From Microbacterium sp. EYE_78 (GTDB taxonomy: Bacteria; Actinomycetota; Actinomycetes; Actinomycetales; Microbacteriaceae): a stretch of 64,000 nt of DNA. The notes under the pieces were generated by a model. It had not been told where the DNA came from. It made no database searches and saw nothing but the letters and a program-made list of their open reading frames with translations. Position numbers and translations under genes: made by a program. Shown here piece by piece: positions 27,022 through 56,117 of the stretch; position 1 is the stretch's first letter; every line of letters begins with the position of its first letter. The stretch covers positions 372,001-436,000 of the forward strand of contig NZ_JAHXMY010000001.1 of NCBI RefSeq assembly GCF_023149035.1. Reading direction: 5' to 3'.

Positions 27022-27327
27022 CTAGGCGACTGCCGTCGGCGGTTCCGCGACGATCACGAGGCCGCTCGGCGAGTTGGCGGTGAGCATCAGCGCCGAGTAC
27101 CAGGCCGCATCCACTCTGGGGCGCTCATGGCGGTACTTGTAGACGAGGTTGCTCGCCCTGTTGACCCAGATGGCGACGCGGCCGCTGCCGTCGTTCGCCT
27201 CGGTCGGGATGACGAACATGAAGCTCTCGCCCCTGCGGAGCTTCGCCTCGATGACCGCCTCGAGCTGCGAGAGCAGACGGTCGTCGAGTTCGAACGTGTT
27301 GATGCGGTGATAGATCAAACGGCCCAT
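27022..27327 (-). CDS. Small family-A protein (KLRRGESF family), orphan copy
   Basis: 101 residues. First of six paralogues in this window; the shared plan is a MG-x-[FL]-x-Y start, a helix ending in KLRRGESF (about 30-37), a tryptophan strand (GRVAIWVNR), a YKY/FKYY strand, then ANSPSGLVIV near the end. This copy is the most divergent and stands alone, 20 kb from the others. Function unknown; I recall such Microbacteriaceae proteins being labelled ATP-dependent DNA ligase or DUF7882, without any ligase motif visible. GGAGG precedes the ATG, and a dyad lies 94 bases upstream. Confidence 0.8.
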   Translation of the reverse strand: MGRLIYHRINTFELDDRLLSQLEAVIEAKLRRGESFMFVIPTEANDGSGRVAIWVNRASNLVYKYRHERPRVDAAWYSALMLTANSPSGLVIVAEPPTAVA

Positions 27328-48284: not shown

Positions 48285-48791
48285 TCAGGACCGGCGGGCG
48301 AGGTCGTCCAGCGAACCGGCGATGCGGCGGATGACCTCGGTCGCCGCGATGACCTGGGCCTCGTCCAGCCCGTCGATCACCGAGACGACGGCGCCGTGGT
48401 GGGCGCCGTACACCTCGTCCACGAGCTCCACCGCCGCGTCCGTCGGCACCAGGTAGTGCGCGCGTCGGTCGGTCGGGTGCTGCTCGCGGATGACATAGCC
48501 CTTGCCGACGAGTCGCTCGATCACGTTCGTGACCGTGGCGCTCGACGTTCCGAGCATGACGATGAGGCCCTTTGGGCTGATCTCGCGGTCCTCCCGCTGC
48601 GCCTGCACGAGGTACCGGAGGGCGGAGAGGTCGATGCTGCCGAGGCCGGAGATCCGCTGCGAGCGGTCGGCCTGGACCTGCTCGGCGTGACGCAGCTCCA
48701 AGATGGCGCTGCTGAGGTCACGACCGGCGTCCGTCTTCGGCTGCGCCGCATACAGATGGGTGTGTTCGTGACGAACGATCGATTGAGGCAT
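48285..48791 (-). CDS. MarR-family transcriptional regulator
   Basis: 168 residues. Winged helix: ISPKGLIVMLGTSSATVTNVIERLVGKGYV (about 75-104), split helix-turn-helix plus wing EQHPTDRRAHYLV. No cysteine, so not an OhrR-type thiol sensor. GGGGAG precedes the ATG. It lies 30 bases downstream of a 70-residue gene on the same strand, probably co-transcribed from the low-GC promoter region 49035-49156, whose palindromes are its likely targets. Confidence 0.88.
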   Translation of the reverse strand: MPQSIVRHEHTHLYAAQPKTDAGRDLSSAILELRHAEQVQADRSQRISGLGSIDLSALRYLVQAQREDREISPKGLIVMLGTSSATVTNVIERLVGKGYVIREQHPTDRRAHYLVPTDAAVELVDEVYGAHHGAVVSVIDGLDEAQVIAATEVIRRIAGSLDDLARRS

Positions 48792-48821
48792 GTCAGCTCC
48801 CCGGCTCGCTGCGCTTGTCGT

Positions 48822-49034
48822 TCATCCGATCGCCGCCCGAGCCTCGGCGACGACCGAATACGTCCCCACGATGCCACCGGCATCGTCTCGGGTGACGTAA
48901 CCGGAAGGAGTGGACTCCACGGTTCCGAGGAACCGCCCGTGGGTGTTGCCGACCCAGAAGCCCTTCTCCACTTCGTGCCACGTCGCGACTGCGTCGCGGA
49001 CGCCCACGCTGTCGTGCGAGTCGAGCATCGTCAT
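48822..49034 (-). CDS. Small hypothetical protein upstream of MarR gene
   Basis: 70 residues, not recognised. One compact beta-rich domain seems likely: WHEVEKGFWVGNTHGRFLG, TVESTPSGYVTRD, GGIVGTYSVVAEARAA. The G-x-F-x-V-G-x-x-x-G-x-F-x-G pattern recalls small beta-barrel or SH3-like folds. First gene of the marR transcript, read from the A+T-rich divergent region. Confidence 0.6.
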   Translation of the reverse strand: MTMLDSHDSVGVRDAVATWHEVEKGFWVGNTHGRFLGTVESTPSGYVTRDDAGGIVGTYSVVAEARAAIG

Positions 49035-49056
49035 CGGCTAGTCCACCTTACTCATT

Positions 49057-49078
49057 CAGATCTGTGACAGATTCTGTC
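49057..49078. promoter_or_regulatory. Overlapping palindromes, probable MarR operator
   Basis: CAGATCTG (49057-49064) abuts GACAGA-T-TCTGTC (49066-49078), a perfect 13-base dyad. Both lie in a 122-base gap of about 40% GC, some 30 points below the rest of the window, between the small-protein/marR operon and the divergent small-gene cluster. A third inverted repeat, ACTAG...CTAGT (49117-49139), lies nearer the plus-strand genes. Confidence 0.6.
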
Positions 49079-49156
49079 CTTCTCGAGATCAATGATAGAC
49101 AAGAGATGTGAAATCCACTAGATGTATTGTTTAGCTAGTAATTCAGGAACGGACAG

Positions 49157-49309
49157 ATGAACCCCACCACCGCTCGCCCCGTACCCGCGCCCTTCACTGC
49201 GCTGGGAGTCGCACTCATCCCTGAGCAGCGCAACTGGTGGCGCGGCGGCATCATCGACGCCCTGTCTCGGCGCCGCCACCGCTCGACGGCGACGCCGGCC
49301 ACCAACTGA
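49157..49309 (+). CDS. Small ORF, 50 residues
   Basis: ATG 49157 is preceded by AGGA at eight bases and the frame ends 32 bases before the next gene. The product is basic at the C-terminus (ALSRRRHRSTATPATN) with a central LIPEQRNWWRGGIID. No homologue recognised. Position, ribosome site and spacing support translation; whether the peptide or only the leader matters is unknown. Confidence 0.45.
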   Translation: MNPTTARPVPAPFTALGVALIPEQRNWWRGGIIDALSRRRHRSTATPATN

Positions 49310-49341
49310 ACACCTGCACACGTCACACACCAGGAGGAATC

Positions 49342-49695
49342 ATGGGAAACCTGTACTACGGCAACGTCGACGCCCCCATCACGATGCCCGATCGCGTCCT
49401 CGCCCATCTTGCGGCGATCGCGACGACCAAGCTGCGCCGCAGCGAGAGCTTCGTCGTCTCGTGGAAGGGCACCGAGGCCGACGGCCAGGGCCGCACGACG
49501 CTCTGGTTCCAGCCCGCAATCCCGCTGCGCTTCGTATACGAGCAGGCCGAAGCGATCGCCCTCAACCCCGCCACCCTTCGCGAGATGGCCGATCAGGCCA
49601 CCTCCAACGGCGGCTTGGTGCTCGACGCCGACCTCGACATCCCCGAGATCTCCCAGAACCGGGCCGAGCCCCGCCGAGCCGTGGTGGCCGCGTGA
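49342..49695 (+). CDS. Small family-A protein (KLRRSESF subtype)
   Basis: 117 residues. Subtype with an MGNLYYG start and KLRRSESFVVSW (about 33-44), GRTTLWFQP and NGGLVLD; shares this subtype only with the gene at 50769. AGGAGGA precedes the ATG. C-terminal tail EISQNRAEPRRAVVAA is disordered. A 32-residue gene overlaps its stop. Unknown function; compact alpha/beta domain predicted, no membrane segment, no cysteine. Confidence 0.82.
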   Translation: MGNLYYGNVDAPITMPDRVLAHLAAIATTKLRRSESFVVSWKGTEADGQGRTTLWFQPAIPLRFVYEQAEAIALNPATLREMADQATSNGGLVLDADLDIPEISQNRAEPRRAVVAA

Positions 49696-49790
49696 GCGAG
49701 ACCGATCTCTTCGACGACGCGGACGCCTTCGAGGACGCCCTCGCCGCCGACTTCACCGAGCGATTCGGCACTCCGCCGCTCTTGGTGTGA
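49692..49790 (+). CDS. Tiny acidic protein, 32 residues, coupled to family-A gene
   Basis: GTG 49692 overlaps the upstream TGA (GTGA). The product SETDLFDDADAFEDALAADF plus TERFGTPPLLV is strongly acidic and would form one amphipathic helix. The 4-base overlap, the same arrangement as for other coupled genes here, is the main evidence that it is real. Confidence 0.5.
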   Translation: MSETDLFDDADAFEDALAADFTERFGTPPLLV

Positions 49791-49857
49791 CCATCCCCCT
49801 GGTGTGACGGACCCCGGAGGCTCCCCACCTCCGAACGTCGGCCCCCATCGCCGACAG

Positions 49858-49907
49858 ACGTGCCGCAAGACCTCGCACTCCCCCGACTGCGACGTGTTGC
49901 GGCACGT
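49858..49907. terminator. Inverted repeat between convergent genes, probable bidirectional terminator
   Basis: ACGTGCCGCAA (49858-49868) and TTGCGGCACGT (49897-49907) pair perfectly over 11 bp around a 28-base spacer, with partial outer pairing (CAGAC/GTCTG). It lies between the tiny gene ending at 49790 and cinA-like stop at 49925. The spacer is long for a terminator, so a repeat-element origin is also possible. Confidence 0.5.
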
Positions 49908-49924
49908 CGCATGTCTGGGCGGCG

Positions 49925-50431
49925 TCAGTGGACCCGACCGGTGATGACGTCGTCGAGCAGGCTGAGTGCCGACCGGACAGCCGCGTCGAGAATCTCTTCC
50001 GGCTCGCCGTCGAAGTGCAGCAAACGATGCCCTGTCCGATCCCCCGTCGCCCAGCCTAGGTACACCGTGCCGGCCGGGTGCCCGTCCTGGTCGTCCGGTC
50101 CTCCCACGCCCGTCGTCGACACCGCGACGTCGGCGTCCATGATGCTTCGCGCACCCCGCGCGAGCTGCTCGGCGCACGCCGCGGAGCACGGGTCGGTGCC
50201 GGGCTCGAGGCCGAGCACCTGCTCCTTGACCCGTGTCTGATAGGCGACGATGCCTCCGGCGAACCACTCCTGTGCGCCCTCGCCGCGCCCGACCTCCGCG
50301 GCGAGCTTGCCGCTGGTCAGCGATTCAGCGACGGCGCAGGTGAGCCCCGCGCGGCGAGCGGCGGCGGAGATGTCCTCGACGATGTCAGGCAGAGGACTCC
50401 GCCTCACCGGGGTCGGCGGGCTCGGGAACAA
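49925..50431 (-). CDS. CinA C-terminal domain protein (nicotinamide-nucleotide amidohydrolase)
   Basis: 168 residues, the stand-alone PncC-type CinA domain: CAVAESLTSGKLAAEVG, GGIVAYQTRVKEQVLG, VSTTGVGGPDDQDGHPAGTVYLGW. It deamidates nicotinamide mononucleotide to recycle it into NAD. The ATG at 50431 lies 47 bases inside the upstream small family-A gene; a GTG at 50407 and a CTG at 50392 (GGCGGAG upstream) are alternative starts, all overlapping, so translation is coupled in any case. Confidence 0.85.
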   Translation of the reverse strand: MFPSPPTPVRRSPLPDIVEDISAAARRAGLTCAVAESLTSGKLAAEVGRGEGAQEWFAGGIVAYQTRVKEQVLGLEPGTDPCSAACAEQLARGARSIMDADVAVSTTGVGGPDDQDGHPAGTVYLGWATGDRTGHRLLHFDGEPEEILDAAVRSALSLLDDVITGRVH

Positions 50432-50708
50432 GGTGCAGTCCCGCGGGCGAGTTCGCCGCGTACATCAGCGCCTCGGACCACGCACGGTTGATGCGCGACT
50501 GACGGCTGCCGTAGTACTTGAAGACGAGGGATGCGTGCGGGTGGAGCCACACCGACGTTCGCCCCTCGCCGATGCTCTTATCGTCGCGCCACGTGAAGTG
50601 GAAGGACTCGCCGCGGCGGAGCTTGTTGCCGATCACCTGCTGAAGGTGCGCCAGCGTGCGGTCCTCGAAGTCCACCTTGATGGAATCCTCATAGATGAAC
50701 TTGCCCAC
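50385..50708 (-). CDS. Small family-A protein (KLRRGESF subtype)
   Basis: 107 residues from GTG 50708 with GGAAGGAAA just upstream. GKFIYEDSIKVDFEDRTLAHL, NKLRRGESFHFTW, GRTSVWLHP, VFKYYGSRQ and ANSPAGLHLVPEP are nearly identical in plan to the copies at 51333 and 55788. Divergent from the family-A gene at 50769 with a 60-base shared promoter region; overlaps cinA-like gene downstream. Function unknown. Confidence 0.83.
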   Translation of the reverse strand: MGKFIYEDSIKVDFEDRTLAHLQQVIGNKLRRGESFHFTWRDDKSIGEGRTSVWLHPHASLVFKYYGSRQSRINRAWSEALMYAANSPAGLHLVPEPADPGEAESSA

Positions 50709-50768
50709 TCGTTTCCTTCCCCGTGTCACCGCGGTCCCGCAGCGACGTCTTCCCATTATGGTGTCCCC

Positions 50769-51101
50769 ATGGGCCTCATCTACTACGGCGGCTCGGCGAT
50801 GCCGATTCGGATCGAGGATCGTGCGCTCGCGCACTTGAAGGTCGTCATCGCCACGAAGCTCCGCCGCTCCGAGAGCTTCACCGTGTCGTGGCAGCATCCC
50901 GACGACTTCCCCCGTGGCCGCACGACCATCTGGCTGCACCCCTCGATCCCCCTGCGTTTCGTCTTCGACGAGCCGGAGCCGCCGGAACTGAGCCGGGAGT
51001 GGATCGAGGAGCTCGCCACCTCCGCGAACTCGTCGGGTGGCATCCAGCTCGTGTCGGGCCTCTTCGAGGTCGAGCACGGGCCCGAGCTCAGCTCGGAGTA
51101 A
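50769..51101 (+). CDS. Small family-A protein (KLRRSESF subtype), leaderless
   Basis: 110 residues. MGLIYYGG start, TKLRRSESFTVSW (about 30-42), GRTTIWLHPSIPLRFVFDEP, then ANSSGGIQLVSG. TATGGT (50757-50762) ends six bases before the ATG and there is no ribosome site, so the message is probably leaderless. Its 3' end overlaps the convergent family-B gene by 14 bases. Paired head-to-head with a member of the other subtype. Confidence 0.83.
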   Translation: MGLIYYGGSAMPIRIEDRALAHLKVVIATKLRRSESFTVSWQHPDDFPRGRTTIWLHPSIPLRFVFDEPEPPELSREWIEELATSANSSGGIQLVSGLFEVEHGPELSSE

Positions 51102-51336
51102 ACGCGCCCTCCGCGGCGCCGTCGTCCTCGGGCGCGTCGGGGATCGGGATCAGGGCGATCGGCACACCGGGGGAGATCAGCAGATGCGCCGGGCGAGGCG
51201 CGCCCTCGCCGTCGTTGACGGTGATCCAGCCGTGCCCCGACGCCAGCGCGGCCGCGATCTGACCCGCGATCTCCTCGTAGGTCTCCTCGCCGATGCTGTA
51301 CTGCTCCCCGCCGTAGTGCACGTCGATCCGCTTCAC
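51088..51336 (-). CDS. Small family-B protein (VNDGEG.PRPA family)
   Basis: 82 residues from GTG 51336, overlapping the stop of the family-A gene (GTGA). Plan: KRIDVHYGGEQYSIG start, a helix, WITVNDGEGAPRPAHLLISP, GVPIALIPIPD, acidic tail. The only relative in the window is at 53544. No annotation recognised. The direct coupling to a family-A member suggests equal stoichiometry or a complex of the two proteins. GGAGG lies upstream. Confidence 0.78.
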   Translation of the reverse strand: MKRIDVHYGGEQYSIGEETYEEIAGQIAAALASGHGWITVNDGEGAPRPAHLLISPGVPIALIPIPDAPEDDGAAEGAFTPS

Positions 51337-51659
51337 AGCCCGACCTCCTCCTTCGCCGAGGCCGCCGTCGGCTCGGGCACGATGTAGAGCCCACCGGGCG
51401 AGTTCGCCACGGACGACAAGGCCTCGATCCACGCCATGTTCAGCGGCGGTCGCTCGCCGCGGTAGAACTTGAAGACGAGCGTGCACCGGGGGTGCAGCCA
51501 GACGCTCGTCCGACCGTCGCCGATCGACGGGTCGTCCTTCCACGTGAAGTGGAAGGACTCCCCGCGTCTCAGCTTCGTGCTGATGACGAGCTGCAGGTGG
51601 GCAAGCGCGCGGTCGTCGAAGTCGACTTTGAGCGTGCCGTCGTAGATGAACTTGCCCAC
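51333..51659 (-). CDS. Small family-A protein (KLRRGESF subtype), downstream of dps
   Basis: 108 residues from GTG 51659, seven bases behind the dps stop and so in the dps transcript. GKFIYDGTLKVDFDDRALAHL, TKLRRGESFHFTW, GRTSVWLHPRCTLVFKFY, ANSPGGLYIVPEP. Followed by the coupled family-B gene. Operon order dps, family A, family B links the family to the stress/stationary-phase response by context only. Confidence 0.83.
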   Translation of the reverse strand: MGKFIYDGTLKVDFDDRALAHLQLVISTKLRRGESFHFTWKDDPSIGDGRTSVWLHPRCTLVFKFYRGERPPLNMAWIEALSSVANSPGGLYIVPEPTAASAKEEVGL

Positions 51660-51666
51660 CGCAGGA

Positions 51667-52215
51667 TCACCGAGGGGTGCGGTTCTCGGCGCTGATCATC
51701 CACGCGAACTGCTCGAGCGACTCGAGGATGCTGTGCAGAATGTCGGCGCTCGTCGGGTCCTCGTCGTCGACGTCGTCGTGGACGTCGCGGCAAGTGCCGA
51801 TGACGGCTTCGAGCCGCTCGGTGACGAGGTCGATGACCTCGGAGGTCAGGACCTCGCCGTGCGGGAACTCGGGGAGGGTGGTCGTCTCGGCGACCGTGTC
51901 GCTGCGCCCGTCCGGGACGGCGTGGAGCGCACGCATGCGCTCGGCGACGGTGTCGCTGAATTCGCGGGCGGCGTCGATGATCTCGTCGAGCTGCAGGTGG
52001 GTGTCGCGGAAGTTCTTGCCGACGACGTTCCAGTGGGCCTGCTTGCCCTGGATCGAGAGCTCGAGGAGGTCGACGAGCACGGCCTGCAGGTTGTCGCTCA
52101 GCTTCTGCGACGCGGTGAAGCCGCGCTCGGCGTTCTGCTCCTCGGTCAGTTGCGCACCCGACTTCGCGGGGCGGCGCTTGTTACGGGCGGCGGGCTTCGC
52201 CTCAGTGGTCGTCAT
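51667..52215 (-). CDS. dps: Dps-family DNA-binding ferritin-like protein
   Basis: 182 residues. Ferroxidase-site residues in GKQAHWNVVGKNFRDTHLQLDE and the second helix pair; the dodecamer family stores iron and shields DNA in starved or oxidatively stressed cells. A lysine/arginine/alanine-rich N-terminal tail (AKPAARNKRRPAKSG, about 6-20) is the usual DNA-binding extension. TAGCGT lies upstream, and an 8-bp inverted repeat in the leader surrounds the ribosome site. Confidence 0.93.
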   Translation of the reverse strand: MTTTEAKPAARNKRRPAKSGAQLTEEQNAERGFTASQKLSDNLQAVLVDLLELSIQGKQAHWNVVGKNFRDTHLQLDEIIDAAREFSDTVAERMRALHAVPDGRSDTVAETTTLPEFPHGEVLTSEVIDLVTERLEAVIGTCRDVHDDVDDEDPTSADILHSILESLEQFAWMISAENRTPR

Positions 52216-52216
52216 G

Positions 52217-52248
52217 GGACATCCCTTCTTCGCGGAACGTGGATGTCC
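52217..52248 (-). promoter_or_regulatory. Leader inverted repeat of dps
   Basis: GGACATCC (52217-52224) and GGATGTCC (52241-52248) are perfect 8-base arms 16 bases apart. In the dps mRNA they would form a hairpin just before the ATG with the ribosome site (AAGAAGG) at the base of the 3' arm, which could limit translation or mark an operator. Confidence 0.4.
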
Positions 52249-52408
52249 TTCACGCTACGACCGCGCATCGCGCCGGGGCATCGGGTTGCGTCCCCTCCTG
52301 CCCGGTGATAACCCCGCGACGAGGGACGGTTGCGCACGCCGGGTCGCTCGTCAAGCCTGCTGTCTCCGAGAACGATCGCGTCCACAGTGGACGGTGGCAG
52401 GAGGTTCC

Positions 52409-53155
52409 ATGCCCACGACCCACCCCATCGAGGCGATCGTCGTCGTCGTGCCCGCGCGCGACGAGGAGGAGCTGCTGGCCGCGTCGCTCGGCGCCCTCGA
52501 GATCGCGGCACTGGCGGCCCGCGCCGCCGGCATCGGGGTGCAGATCGTCGTGGTCCTCGATGCGTGCCGCGACGCATCCGCCGACATCGCCTCCGCCGCC
52601 GATGTCATGGTCGTCGAGATCGACGAATGCTCGGCCGCCGCGGGCCGGAACGCCGGCGTGGACGCCGCGCTCCAGCTGTTCGCCGACCTGCCGCCCGAGC
52701 GGATCTGGACGGCGCACACCGATGCCGACTCGATCGTGCCGCCGCACTGGCTCACGCATCAGCTCTCGCTTGCGCGGCGGGGCGCCGTCGCGATCGCGGG
52801 TACCGTCCGCCCCGATTTCGCCGACCTCACACCCGAGCAGACCGACGCGTGGTGGGCAGCGCACACACCGGGGGTCGCCGACGGTCGCGCGCACGGAGCG
52901 AACCTCGGCGTCCGCGCCGACGCCCTCCGTGACGTCGGAGGATTTCCGCGCGCCGACCGGGAGGACATCACCCTCGTCGACGCGCTGCGCGGATCCGGCG
53001 CTGAGGTGGTCGCGTCGGATGCCGCCTGGGTGCGCACGAGCGGGCGCGCGGCACGGCAGGCAGGCCGGGGGTACGCCGAGCGCCTGCGGGACGACCTGCA
53101 GCGGGCGGCGGCCGACGGCATCCGTCGCGTCGCGCACCCGATCTCGATGATCTGA
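52409..53155 (+). CDS. Glycosyltransferase family 2 protein
   Basis: 248 residues. GT-A features: VVVVPARDEEELLAASLGAL, VVVLDACRD, HTDADSIVPPHWL (metal-binding DxD), and GANLGVRADALRDVGGFP followed by REDITLVDALRGSG. Inverting transferase acting on the cytoplasmic side; no membrane segment. GGAGG precedes the ATG. Such orphan GT2 proteins in this lineage often sit with methyltransferase and deacetylase genes, absent here. Substrate unknown. Confidence 0.88.
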   Translation: MPTTHPIEAIVVVVPARDEEELLAASLGALEIAALAARAAGIGVQIVVVLDACRDASADIASAADVMVVEIDECSAAAGRNAGVDAALQLFADLPPERIWTAHTDADSIVPPHWLTHQLSLARRGAVAIAGTVRPDFADLTPEQTDAWWAAHTPGVADGRAHGANLGVRADALRDVGGFPRADREDITLVDALRGSGAEVVASDAAWVRTSGRAARQAGRGYAERLRDDLQRAAADGIRRVAHPISMI

Positions 53156-53164
53156 CGCAGCCGT

Positions 53165-53473
53165 TCAGCCGTTCAGCCGGACGGCGACCGCCTCGAACTC
53201 CTCGTCGGTGACAGCGATCCCGGCCTCCTTCAGCCGCTGCGCGAGGATGGATCTCGGGTCCACGTCGTCGTGACCGGCGACGTCCGCGCGCGTCTGCACG
53301 AGGATGCCCTCGATCTTCTGGCCGGCGTCGGCGTCGTTCTGCGACATCATCGGCGCGGTCTGCGCAGGGTCGCCTGCGGTGCCGCGTTGGACGTCCCCCG
53401 CCCAGATCTCTTCGCGTCCGCCGTCCTGGCCGTGGTGGTCACCCGTGCGGCCGACATCCTTCGCATCGCTCAT
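53165..53473 (-). CDS. Small acidic hydrophilic protein
   Basis: 102 residues, not recognised. The first 45 residues are polar and disordered-looking; the C-terminal half (GQKIEGILVQTRADVAGHDD, then ILAQRLKEAGIAVTDEEFEA) looks like two or three helices. The stop is nine bases from the convergent glycosyltransferase stop. Length, start spacing and context in the small-protein island support a gene. Confidence 0.55.
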   Translation of the reverse strand: MSDAKDVGRTGDHHGQDGGREEIWAGDVQRGTAGDPAQTAPMMSQNDADAGQKIEGILVQTRADVAGHDDVDPRSILAQRLKEAGIAVTDEEFEAVAVRLNG

Positions 53474-53543
53474 AGCGCAAGTGTGCTCGCCCGTTCCACG
53501 GACCGTTATCCCCTTGACCGTGTCGGCACGCAGGGATAGGCGC

Positions 53544-53861
53544 TCACCGGCGGCGTGGTCGCCCGGTGTGGATCGTTGGTCCGTCCCAGAGCGGTGACAG
53601 GCCTTCCGGCTCCGGATCGTCGAACGCCGGGGCCTGTCCGTCCGTCGGCGGGTCCTGCGGCTCGGGCACGGGGATCACGGCGATGGGCACGCCCGGTGTG
53701 ATGAAGAGGTACGCGGGGCGAGGACTGCCCTCACCGTCGTTGACGGCGAGCCAGTGCTCGCCGGCCCGCGCGCCCTCCTGGATCTCGCGGTGCACGTCGT
53801 CGAGCGTCCGGTTGCCGACGCTGTACCACTGACCGCCGTACGAGATGTCGATGCGCTTCAT
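53544..53861 (-). CDS. Small family-B protein (VNDGEG.PRPA family)
   Basis: 105 residues from ATG 53861 with GAGGAG upstream. MKRIDISYGGQWYSVGNRTL, WLAVNDGEGSPRPAYLFITP, GVPIAVIPVPEP correspond residue for residue to the gene at 51088-51336; the tail is longer and proline/acid-rich, ending basic (GRPRRR). Here it is not coupled to a family-A gene. Function unknown. Confidence 0.75.
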   Translation of the reverse strand: MKRIDISYGGQWYSVGNRTLDDVHREIQEGARAGEHWLAVNDGEGSPRPAYLFITPGVPIAVIPVPEPQDPPTDGQAPAFDDPEPEGLSPLWDGPTIHTGRPRRR

Positions 53862-53960
53862 CGGGTCTCCTCGGCTTCCGGCGGGCTTCGGTGCACCAGC
53901 ATCCGACCTATCGGACGCGAAGGCCACGATCTTGACAGGCCGGGACGCAGACACTACCCG

Positions 53961-54251
53961 TCAGAGCGCGGCGAGCGGCGGACGGTGCGCGATCGGCTTC
54001 GGCTTGCCCCGACGCGAGGCGCAGGCGGCGAGATGGCGGGCGCCGCCGAGAAGGAGTTCGTCGACGGTCGGGAACCATGCGGTACCCGACCCGCCGTGGA
54101 CCCAGGTGACGTCGTAGCCGCCGTCGGCCGCCTCCTCGACGTATGCCAGGAGGTTCGCCGCGTCGGCGCGCGAGACCCGCGAATTGCAAAGACGCCAGGC
54201 GCCCGGCGCCAGCGCCTCGAGCGTGAGTTGATGGACGGGGTCTGCGCTCAT
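53961..54251 (-). CDS. Small hypothetical protein
   Basis: 96 residues, not recognised. MSADPVHQLTLEALAPGAWR, an LCNSRVSRADAANLLAYVEE helix, then YDVTWVHGGSGTAWFPTVDE and a basic tail. The mixture of W, H and G around residues 50-60 suggests a compact alpha/beta domain. Lies 99 bases upstream of the family-B gene on the same strand. Confidence 0.6.
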   Translation of the reverse strand: MSADPVHQLTLEALAPGAWRLCNSRVSRADAANLLAYVEEAADGGYDVTWVHGGSGTAWFPTVDELLLGGARHLAACASRRGKPKPIAHRPPLAAL

Positions 54252-54460
54252 GGTCGCACCTCCGGGGTGTAGCGTGTCTGGCGATCGTCATTGACCGTCG
54301 GCGAGCAAACTGCCTCGCGGATTCACCATCGCTCGCAGAGCCCGTCTCACGGAGGGCCTTGACACACCGCGCACCCGGGGGTACCCGCCGCCGAGGTGAG
54401 TAGCAGACCCGGCGGGGCGGAGTCAATGCCCCCACGCACATCCAACAGCCCGCCTAGCGT

Positions 54461-54570
54461 TGGGCGTGCAAGGTAAGTAGGCGGATGGTCGAGTCGAGAG
54501 GTGTTCGGGTCACCGTTCCACTCCCCCGCTTATGACAGGCCCCGGCGATCGGGCTTATCGCCGGGGCCTT
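54461..54570 (+). ncRNA. Candidate small RNA or structured leader
   Basis: The 390-base gene-free stretch 54252-54641 contains TAGCGT (54455-54460, a possible -10 box) followed 75 bases later by a perfect 13-bp hairpin and a short T run. The enclosed sequence has a C-rich unpaired segment (CTCCCCCGC, 54521-54529). A free ~105-base RNA, or an attenuated leader of the gene at 54642, would both fit. Upstream, TTGACA at 54359-54364 has no convincing -10 partner. Nothing else is visible in the stretch. Confidence 0.3.
54537..54569 (+). terminator. Intrinsic terminator/attenuator hairpin
   Basis: AGGCCCCGGCGAT (54537-54549) pairs perfectly with 54557-54569 around a 7-base loop. It lies 72 bases before a gene in the same direction, so it ends an upstream transcript or attenuates that gene. 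Confidence 0.7.
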
Positions 54571-54641
54571 ACCTGTGCAAGCCCCTCTCCCGTGGCGCCC
54601 CTCGGACGTACCGTCGGCCCACCGAACGAGAGGAGCACGAC

Positions 54642-54833
54642 ATGACCGATCACACCGAACGCGCGGAGTCGGACGGCTCGCTGCCCGGGGGCTCGCTGCC
54701 GGACGAGGACCCGATCGAGGCCGTCCGTCACGCAGCCTCGAACGACGAGAGCGTGCCCATCGAGAACGTCGAGCCGGGCGTCGACCCCGACTCGGCGGAC
54801 TCGAGCAGGTCGCTGCACCGCGACGGCGACTGA
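54642..54833 (+). CDS. Small acidic disordered protein
   Basis: 63 residues: MTDHTERAESDGSLPGGSLP, DEDPIEAVRHAASNDESVPI, then ENVEPGVDPDSADSSRSLHRDGD. Highly acidic, no hydrophobic core. GAGAGGAG precedes the ATG at good distance. Resembles the small hydrophilic stress proteins common in actinobacteria, but no family recognised. Confidence 0.55.
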   Translation: MTDHTERAESDGSLPGGSLPDEDPIEAVRHAASNDESVPIENVEPGVDPDSADSSRSLHRDGD

Positions 54834-54848
54834 GGTCCCCCGATCGGG

Positions 54849-54881
54849 GAGCGGCCGCATCCGAACGGGGTGCGGCCGCTC
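54849..54881. terminator. Bidirectional terminator
   Basis: GAGCGGCCGCA (54849-54859) pairs with TGCGGCCGCTC (54871-54881) around an 11-base loop, between the stops of the acidic small protein (54833) and the transglycosylase (54889). Confidence 0.75.
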
Positions 54882-54888
54882 CTCTGCG

Positions 54889-55686
54889 TCAGCGGCTGTC
54901 GTCGACGAAGTGGGCGTATTCGTTGGCCCGCACCGCGACGTCGTCCACGTATCGCGTCAGCGGGTTGTACGTGAAGATCGCCTGCCGCCACCGTGCCGCG
55001 GTGTCGAGCGGTCCCGATCGGCAGAGGTACCGGCCGGCGGCGAGGGCGGCATCGTCGATGTGGTTCGGGTCTCGCGTGCCGTCGGCGTCGCCGTCGGCAC
55101 CCCACCTCCGCCAGGTCTCGGGGATGAACTGCATCGGCCCGACAGCCCGATCCCACCGTTCGTCGCCGTCGAGCCGGCCGCCGTCGGTGTCATCGACGGC
55201 GGCGACACCGTCGCCGTCGAGGCGCGGACCCAGGATGCGCGGGGACACGAGTCCGCTCTCGTCGAGCGACGCTCCGCCGTACGCGCCGTGACGGGTCTCG
55301 ACCCATCCGATGCCCGCCAGCGTGTTCCACGCGATCGCGCACGACGGCTGCTCGTTCGCGAGGGTGAGATCCGCCGCTGCGTAGGCGACGACCGCGCGAC
55401 GCGGGATGCCGGTGGCCGCCGCGACCTCCGTCGCCCACGCCGGGTCGACGAGGTCGATCGCCGGCGCCCGCGCGGGATCGGCGCCCGTCACCGCGACGGC
55501 CGCCTCCGGGATACGCGCCGCTGTCGACGAGACCTCGGGCGGCGCCTGCTCGTCGCGCTCCGGGACGGACAGGCAGGCTGCCAGGAGCACGACGATCCCC
55601 GCCGGAACGACGCCGAGCGCGACCGCGACGACCGCTGACCGGCGTCGCTGGACCCGTGCGGAACGGCGGCGCCGACGTGCAGCCAT
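54889..55686 (-). CDS. Lytic murein transglycosylase (SLT/MltB-like) lipoprotein
   Basis: 265 residues. Arginine-rich N-terminus, hydrophobic segment (AVVAVALGVVPAGIVVLLAAC) ending in a lipobox-like LAAC (C38). Catalytic glutamate E130 in GIGWVETRHGAYGG; then GPMQFIPETWRRWGADGDAD, DPNHIDDAALAAGRYLC and IFTYNPLTRYVDDV, the MltB-type lysozyme-like domain. It cleaves peptidoglycan glycan strands outside the membrane during growth, division or spore/resuscitation-like events. Confidence 0.9.
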   Translation of the reverse strand: MAARRRRRSARVQRRRSAVVAVALGVVPAGIVVLLAACLSVPERDEQAPPEVSSTAARIPEAAVAVTGADPARAPAIDLVDPAWATEVAAATGIPRRAVVAYAAADLTLANEQPSCAIAWNTLAGIGWVETRHGAYGGASLDESGLVSPRILGPRLDGDGVAAVDDTDGGRLDGDERWDRAVGPMQFIPETWRRWGADGDADGTRDPNHIDDAALAAGRYLCRSGPLDTAARWRQAIFTYNPLTRYVDDVAVRANEYAHFVDDSR

Positions 55687-55787
55687 CTCGACGCCTCCTC
55701 CCGCGCCGAACGGTGTCAGGGCGCCCGGTCCACCGTAGTGCCGGCCTCTCCGGATTCGCCGGGGACGGGCCCAGAGGCATCCACCCC

Positions 55788-56117
55788 TCAGATCGTCTCG
55801 AGCGAGCCGATACGACTGTCGTCGGCCGGCTCGCTCATGACGAAGAGCCCTCCGGTCGAGTTCGCGGCGTGGGCCAGCTTCTCGAGCCAGGTCCGGTTGA
55901 TCGACGGGGCGCGCGAGCCGTAGTACTTGAAGTCGAGATCCGCAGACGGGTGGATCCAGACCGCACGACGACCGTCACCGACGCTCGGGTCGTCCCGCCA
56001 CGTGAAGTAGAAGGACTCGCCCCGCTTGAGTTTGTTGCCGATGACGATCTGCAGGTGGGCGAGCACCCGGTCCTCGACTTCGGTCTTCACGAGCGTGTTG
56101 TAGTGAAACCTGCCCAT
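55788..56117 (-). CDS. Small family-A protein (KLKRGESF subtype)
   Basis: 109 residues from ATG 56117, GGAGGG upstream. GRFHYNTLVKTEVEDRVLAHL, NKLKRGESFYFTW, GRRAVWIHPSADLDFKYYGSR, ANSTGGLFVMSEP. The arginine before GESF is preceded by lysine rather than arginine. Sixth copy in the window; single-gene unit between the transglycosylase and a hydrolase, both on the same strand. Confidence 0.83.
   Translation of the reverse strand: MGRFHYNTLVKTEVEDRVLAHLQIVIGNKLKRGESFYFTWRDDPSVGDGRRAVWIHPSADLDFKYYGSRAPSINRTWLEKLAHAANSTGGLFVMSEPADDSRIGSLETI

Follow-up and report, generated by a model that had tools for sequence, protein, structure and literature searches.

Introduction

The closest described relatives of the proteins studied here are the putative cytoplasmic transducers encoded by small genes beside CryoRhodopsin genes, whose family was deposited as DUF7882 (PF25355). 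There, the transducer is an AlphaFold3-predicted homopentamer with predicted docking on the rhodopsin C terminus by strand addition, and the pentamer sheet is likened to bacterial PH-domain rings (PDB 3DCX) (PMC12227055). A literature search for DUF7882/PF25355 found the family described solely as a rhodopsin partner. Public records, those of Curtobacterium included, name its members 'ATP-dependent DNA ligase'.

We analyzed a 64,000-nucleotide stretch of Microbacterium sp. EYE_78 (the window; contig NZ_JAHXMY010000001.1, positions 372,001 to 436,000; positions below are counted from its first letter), in which an island at 48285-56117 combines DUF7882 copies with dps and a second small-protein family, here called F2. 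The first-pass annotation had read it as a lineage-specific, stress-associated module. The island is more structured than that annotation saw, and the system extends and re-interprets a family that Pfam already names, adding two unnamed partner families, F2 and T3. The annotation missed the CryoRhodopsin link, the F2 coupling, the T3 family and a likely relationship between F2 and DUF3107. We tentatively favor the reading that this conserved Microbacterium locus encodes stress-linked adaptors, small proteins that may assemble, likely together, into beta-sheet rings; this reading builds on predictions and on gene context.

Results

The dps-DUF7882-F2 run and the DUF7882 copies of the window

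The core of the island is a run of three genes on the minus strand. The first gene, dps (51667..52215, PF00210, 73.6 bits), encodes a ferritin-like DNA-protection protein and is separated by 7 bp from a DUF7882 gene (51333..51659), which overlaps by 4 bp the gene of an F2 protein (51088..51336, MKRIDVHYGG) that starts inside its stop. The DUF7882 product, of the MGKF/GESF type, scores 122.7 bits with PF25355 and belongs to clade II described below (153.7 vs 115.6 bits with the two clade models); its AlphaFold2 model has a mean predicted local distance difference test score of 89.7.

Five DUF7882 copies lie in the island. The plus-strand copies, at 49342..49695 (MGNLYYG/SESF, 109.7 bits) and 50769..51101 (MGLIYYG/SESF, 126.9 bits; 140.0 vs 109.5 bits for clade I), are of clade I, and the minus-strand copies at 50385..50708 (122.9 bits) and 55788..56117 (124.8 bits) are, like the copy of the dps run, of clade II; the copies at 49342, 50385 and 55788 were assigned by the clade hidden Markov models (HMMs). 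A sixth, divergent clade II copy lies outside the island on the minus strand (27022..27327; 92.3 bits at G000:C1:399043-399327). These are the six paralogues of about 110 residues that had been reported before, and their PF25355 scores of 92.3-126.9 bits compare with a Pfam cut-off of 27. The KL[RK]R[GS]ESF and GRxxxW motifs are present in all six translations. The proposed AxSxxGL end holds for five, the copy at 50769 ending in GI, and the start motifs are looser than claimed (MGKF, MGKF, MGRF and MGRL on the minus strand, MGNLYYG and MGLIYYG on the plus strand). The head-to-head pair that had been pointed out is formed by the copies at 50385-50708 (minus) and 50769-51101 (plus), with 60 bp between them.

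The second of the two small-protein families announced by the first-pass annotation is F2, with a consensus start MKRIDxxYGG. Its second copy (53544..53861, minus strand, MKRIDISYGG, F2 profile 112.7 bits) has no DUF7882 gene within 1.5 kb, the nearest lying about 1.9 kb away on either side. Across the genome, 3.10 Mb in four contigs, there are 12 DUF7882 genes, two F2 genes, both inside the window, and two T3 genes, both elsewhere.

F2 is the usual partner of DUF7882 and T3 a recurrent neighbor

The neighborhood was studied in 101 loci (the window included) and 20 control regions, followed by 79 named loci from a genome-collection scan, with genes called by a codon-usage script. DUF7882 was called in 173 of the 180 loci, of which 172 are distinct (L139 is the same stretch as L309). 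Within three genes of DUF7882, F2 was found in 68/172 loci and T3 in 41/172; neither was found in the control regions.

This first set had been picked for DUF7882, so F2 and T3 were also sampled from loci picked for F2 or T3. Among all F2 matches in 120 Microbacteriaceae genomes, 56 of 81 have DUF7882 within 1.5 kb, and so have 20 of the best 30 T3 loci of a longer list, with profiles built mainly from members near DUF7882; the chance expectation is about 0.5% (calculated from 377 matches and 77 genomes of some 3.4 Mb). Split by score, the 30 best F2 loci have DUF7882 nearby in 29 cases and the 50 others in 27; the second copy of the window has none. The lower-scoring loci do not bear out a near-obligate F2 partnership, which slightly lowers the odds of the favored reading and of the wider scheme discussed below and slightly raises those of the homo-ring rival. 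DUF7882 is present in 43 of 44 genomes with F2 and in 59 of 60 with T3. Where F2 stands directly downstream of DUF7882 (n = 55), the two genes overlap by exactly 4 bp in 24 cases and lie between -20 and +30 bp of each other in 45. F2 is thus the usual partner of DUF7882, and T3 a recurrent neighbor. An NCBIfam search with three DUF7882, three F2 and one T3 protein gave no match.

On a Curtobacterium plasmid, DUF7882, F2 and T3 follow in succession. About a third of the F2 matches lie away from DUF7882, for example at L362, L363, L367, L373, L375 and L379.

Adjacent DUF7882 genes mostly combine two old clades

A tree of 127 DUF7882 domains (78% identity cut, 100 columns), in which many forks are open, has one deep split with 99/87 support, separating 49 rows (clade I) from 78 (clade II). 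The two subtypes postulated from the window sequences therefore correspond to two old clades; the YY-type start does not mark a clade of its own, as well-supported branches force at least four changes. Clade HMMs classified 248 of 250 genes. Adjacent DUF7882 pairs combine clade I with clade II in 27 of 32 cases, where 44% are expected (p 2.6e-6, shared descent ignored), and still in 15 of 20 without the eight loci of the island and its orthologues (p 0.005); the same-clade exceptions are L094, L095, L118, L142 and L299. By eye, the pairs make up about seven separate arrangements. The island contributes divergent and convergent pairs; other divergent sets, one more convergent set and, in other genera, tandem pairs account for the rest.

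The KLRR-E-F stretch, W40, W54 and W77 are common to both clades. The columns that best separate them lie in strands 2 and 5, at helix position 23, and in the last part of strand 3 together with the loop that leads from it to strand 4; position 41 is acidic in 21/49 clade I rows and basic in 65/78 clade II rows. As judged from the alignment, these columns would fit partners with different edges.

Strand 5 and the strand 3-4 loop could insulate paralogues as well as pair them, and this bears on the rival explanation that each DUF7882 forms its own homo-ring for the adjoining gene, with the clade pairing reflecting shared regulation. The published prediction (PMC12227055) is of that kind (a homopentamer on one rhodopsin), the neighbors vary widely between DUF7882 copies, and a third of the F2 matches have no DUF7882 close by. 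Against insulated homo-rings, the 4-bp overlap seen where F2 directly follows DUF7882 (24/55) suggests a joint product, and adjacent pairs are mostly cross-clade. We hold this explanation to be possible, if rather unlikely.

Predicted fold and likely kinship with DUF3107

Profile comparisons link F2 with DUF7882, T3 and DUF3107. In the models of both DUF7882 and F2 the elements run beta-beta-alpha-beta-beta-beta, to which DUF7882 adds a C-terminal helix, and from these models and profiles the two are likely related families. The predicted F2 fold resembles Rv3208A (DUF3107, PF11305; PDB 7rur, 7rus), which was solved as an octamer and a hexadecamer. With the same predicted fold and significant profile similarity, F2 fits a DUF3107 superfamily drawn by fold and remote homology and is likely kin of DUF3107. 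A Pfam scan of both F2 copies gave no PF11305 match.

A sequence search of solved structures with F2 and DUF7882 gave no credible match (best E 0.012, a designed protein), and Foldseek comparison of both models with the PDB gave none at E <=0.001. The fold matches that would support a small-molecule sensing ring of PII-like logic, acting without a protein docking partner, stood at background level, and we regard such a ring as very unlikely.

Conservation of the island and of the divergent spacer

Seven of the 79 named loci (L263, L264, L265, L283, L327, L332, L340) share all or part of the island's gene order, so this order is not a chance arrangement; profile search and neighbor counts support the earlier proposal of a module with conserved neighbors. 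In the M. oleivorans loci L332 and L340, dps and the head-to-head pair are kept and the dps-linked DUF7882-F2 pair is missing.

Syntenic islands across species, and pair members homologous to each other, speak against toxin-antitoxin-like or selfish small genes spread by mobility, an idea to which the small adjacent genes, the up to 15 matches per genome and copies on 17 plasmid records lend some color. The DUF7882 protein at 51333 had no match in 50,697 phage records, and five island proteins had none in PADLOC, no separate toxin-antitoxin library having been searched. We consider the selfish-gene explanation very unlikely.

The 60-bp spacer of the head-to-head pair (50709..50768) was compared in L263, L265, L283, L327, L332 and L340; in L264, where the starts of the genes had been called wrongly, the spacer was left unread. 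The last 17 bp, beside the plus gene (50752-50768, CCCATTATGGTGTCCCC), show few changes in six of the seven orthologous pairs, and the remaining spacer sequence varies. The element contains CCATTATGG beside the start of the plus copy and, from its sequence, might include the -10 box of a transcript with a short leader or none.

Words and dyads were also searched upstream of 222 DUF7882 genes and 1755 other genes. A common promoter of DUF7882 genes was rejected, the enriched words coming mostly from the island's own head-to-head spacer. The dyad TCGC with GAGG precedes 24/222 DUF7882 genes vs 33/1755 others (uncorrected p 1.3e-9). A sigma-70-type scan of the island gave one site vs 0.3 expected, and a terminator scan of the island found none.

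Distribution of DUF7882 and its link to rhodopsin

DUF7882 was found in 77 of the 120 Microbacteriaceae genomes searched, the present genome included (76 over the cut-off), with 377 matches in total, a few of them fragments, and up to 15 per genome. Among 346 genomes drawn from the phylum, five have DUF7882 and all five are Microbacteriaceae, so that the proposed lineage specificity holds. The 136-kb plasmid NZ_CP121273.1 of M. proteolyticum has eight DUF7882 places; in the stretch examined, an Asp23/Gls24 stress protein, a sigma factor and a response regulator lie near three of them. Three records named for organisms outside the family carry DUF7882 or F2 genes: one titled Planococcus sp. APC 4015 (L318), which also has T3 and a tree position among Microbacterium rows, and two named Micromonospora sp. 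DT81.3 (P0096, P0148); all three are probably mislabelled or mixed assemblies.

A search of the present genome for rhodopsin (PF01036) gave no match; the model itself works, because it matches in 28 of the 120 family genomes. A rhodopsin partner of the kind described beside CryoRhodopsin genes is thus rejected for this genome. Across the 120 genomes, rhodopsin and DUF7882 co-occur no more than by chance (13 of the 28 rhodopsin genomes, p 0.99). Thirty loci were fetched from 34 rhodopsin matches and DUF7882 was present in six, with one more adjacent case by coordinates. The rhodopsin link covers only a few percent of the DUF7882 family, and with few rhodopsin-adjacent copies and none in this genome, a broader role of DUF7882 is needed.

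The ligase label

The suspicion that the family is mislabelled as ATP-dependent DNA ligase was well founded: the name is in public records, and a Pfam scan of the five island copies gave no PF01068 match, the only hit besides PF25355 being a sub-threshold PF13563 (2'-5' RNA ligase) match in one copy (17.4 bits vs a cut-off of 27). True PF01068 matches occur in 54 of 80 family genomes, usually one to three per genome and some of them of LigD size. In one genome (G079:C1:1518573-1519909, within L098), DUF7882 adjoins a true PF01068 ligase gene in the same orientation, which may be where the label came from.

That adjacency is among the arguments for nucleic-acid or nucleoid factors working with Dps and DNA repair, the ligase label then naming the right process and the wrong enzyme. 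A basic KLRR stretch that hardly varies, the presence of dps in the run and a topoisomerase IB cluster near DUF7882 in four loci would also suit such factors. The Pfam results for the five island copies, without PF01068 and with only the sub-threshold RNA ligase match, do not; among the nameable enriched neighbors, repair genes are outweighed by regulators, sensors, membrane and metabolic genes, and the rhodopsin link does not fit. We judge nucleoid factors of this kind to be quite unlikely.

In a desiccation transcriptome (PMC12029717), two induced 'ATP-dependent DNA ligase' genes may be mislabelled DUF7882 genes. True ligases are common in family genomes, so these two genes could also be real ligases. 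The main text of a uranium proteomics study of M. oleivorans A9 (PMC6231083) names no individual proteins.

Neighboring genes

Genes within three of DUF7882 were compared with the other genes of the same loci and with the controls; the p-values take no account of relatedness among the loci, and since even SDR genes come out as 'enriched' (p 3.4e-3), little weight attaches to small effects. The strongest associations were with MarR (16 of 173 loci, p 2.0e-6), DUF6766 (16, p 4.7e-6), AraC regulators (12, p 1.7e-5) and a desaturase (14, p 2.6e-5). Dps is near DUF7882 in 12 of 173 loci (p 2.0e-3), seven of which, with the window, are orthologues of one island. Lower counts were obtained for CsbD (six loci, p 0.019), GAF-ANTAR pairs (six, p 0.019), EAL (four, p 0.026) and an RsbQ-like hydrolase (three, p 0.065). 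The CsbD and EAL clusters are presumed to be such from their sequences, and 'RsbQ-like' is likewise our presumption, Pfam giving alpha/beta hydrolase. DUF7882 neighbors are often stress or sensing genes, and it is from such neighbors (MarR, Dps, CsbD, GAF-ANTAR pairs) that the supposed stress association draws its support.

In L104 and L119, the RsbQ-like hydrolase, a PAS-GAF-GGDEF protein, two DUF7882 and F2 are followed by EAL on the opposite strand. Some DUF7882 copies have close by a small protein that no more than resembles membrane-associated proteins of holin type (L286:4502-4915) or DUF3618 type (L266:203-778).

Other genes of the island

The island is bordered by a MarR-family regulator (48285..48791, minus strand, PF12802/PF01047) of the cluster found near DUF7882 in 16 loci. 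Next to it lies a gene for a 70-residue protein with no Pfam match (48822..49034, minus), which is near DUF7882 in six loci and recurs in the orthologous islands; a 51-residue call at 49157 is a doubtful gene. Downstream of DUF7882 50385, and overlapping it by 23 bp in the gene calls, is cinA (49925..50407, minus), for a CinA C-terminal domain protein (PF02464, 131.6 bits). Between dps and the second F2 gene stands a small gene with no Pfam match (53165..53473, minus; six loci, recurring in orthologous islands), and beyond that F2 gene come a 96-residue protein with no Pfam match (53961..54251, minus; near DUF7882 in 14 loci) and a small gene with no Pfam match (54642..54833) that recurs in orthologous islands. 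The 'cell-wall hydrolase' of the first-pass annotation is an SLT-type transglycosylase-like protein (54889..55686, minus; SLT_2, PF13406, 31.1 bits). A family-2 glycosyltransferase completes the island. Its four small unnamed genes, at 48822, 53165, 53961 and 54642, all recur in orthologous islands.

The Dps of the window scores under the NCBIfam Dps equivalog cut-off (89.1 vs 114). For AAH, a Dps-like protein of M. arborescens, a reversible hydrolase activity is reported (PMC3289904), and by analogy the window Dps might share an AAH-type hydrolase activity.

Discussion

In the favored reading, dps, DUF7882 of clades I and II and F2 are encoded together, and the dps-DUF7882-F2 run would be expressed as one operon. 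The small proteins would assemble into beta-sheet rings, as suggested by Rv3208A and by the published AlphaFold3 pentamer, and clade I, clade II and F2 may mix in one ring or in stacked rings. Such rings would dock by strand addition to the tail of a partner, as published for CryoRhodopsin as a prediction, with Dps no more than a candidate partner here, and would act as adaptors on stress sensors or effectors, presumably induced under starvation, oxidative or water stress.

A wider form of this idea is that DUF7882 of both clades, F2 and T3 build combinatorial hetero-oligomeric rings, share a ring-forming ancestor with DUF3107 and plug into CryoRhodopsin, RsbQ-like/PAS-GGDEF, GAF-ANTAR pairs or Dps, giving a genome about a dozen exchangeable transducer parts. 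We consider this full scheme unlikely.

If the adaptor reading were true, the adaptor family would be far larger than the one branch that rhodopsins use, with F2 and T3 as its missing subunits, and the signalling role could be tested in ordinary soil strains that lack rhodopsin. The ligase label may have made the desiccation transcriptome count stress adaptors as DNA-repair ligases.

The likeness of DUF7882 to ATP-dependent DNA ligases (PF01068) is the database name only, the proteins being about 100-117 residues long with no ligase domain match. F2 is set apart from DUF3107 in that a DUF3107 gene exists beside it in this genome, at C2:757824 and separate from F2. The PH-domain ring 3DCX was not among the matches listed for the DUF7882 or F2 model, and is not excluded thereby. 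With the CryoRhodopsin-linked proteins, the six window copies share the Pfam family, all over the cut-off; they differ in their pairing by clade and in lying with F2 and Dps, in a genome where no rhodopsin gene was found, and the parts of PMC12227055 considered here mention neither the clade pairing nor the company of F2 and Dps. Taken together, the Pfam family DUF7882 and its CryoRhodopsin role were already known, and the F2 coupling, T3, the likely DUF3107 kinship and the pairing of two clades are new here.

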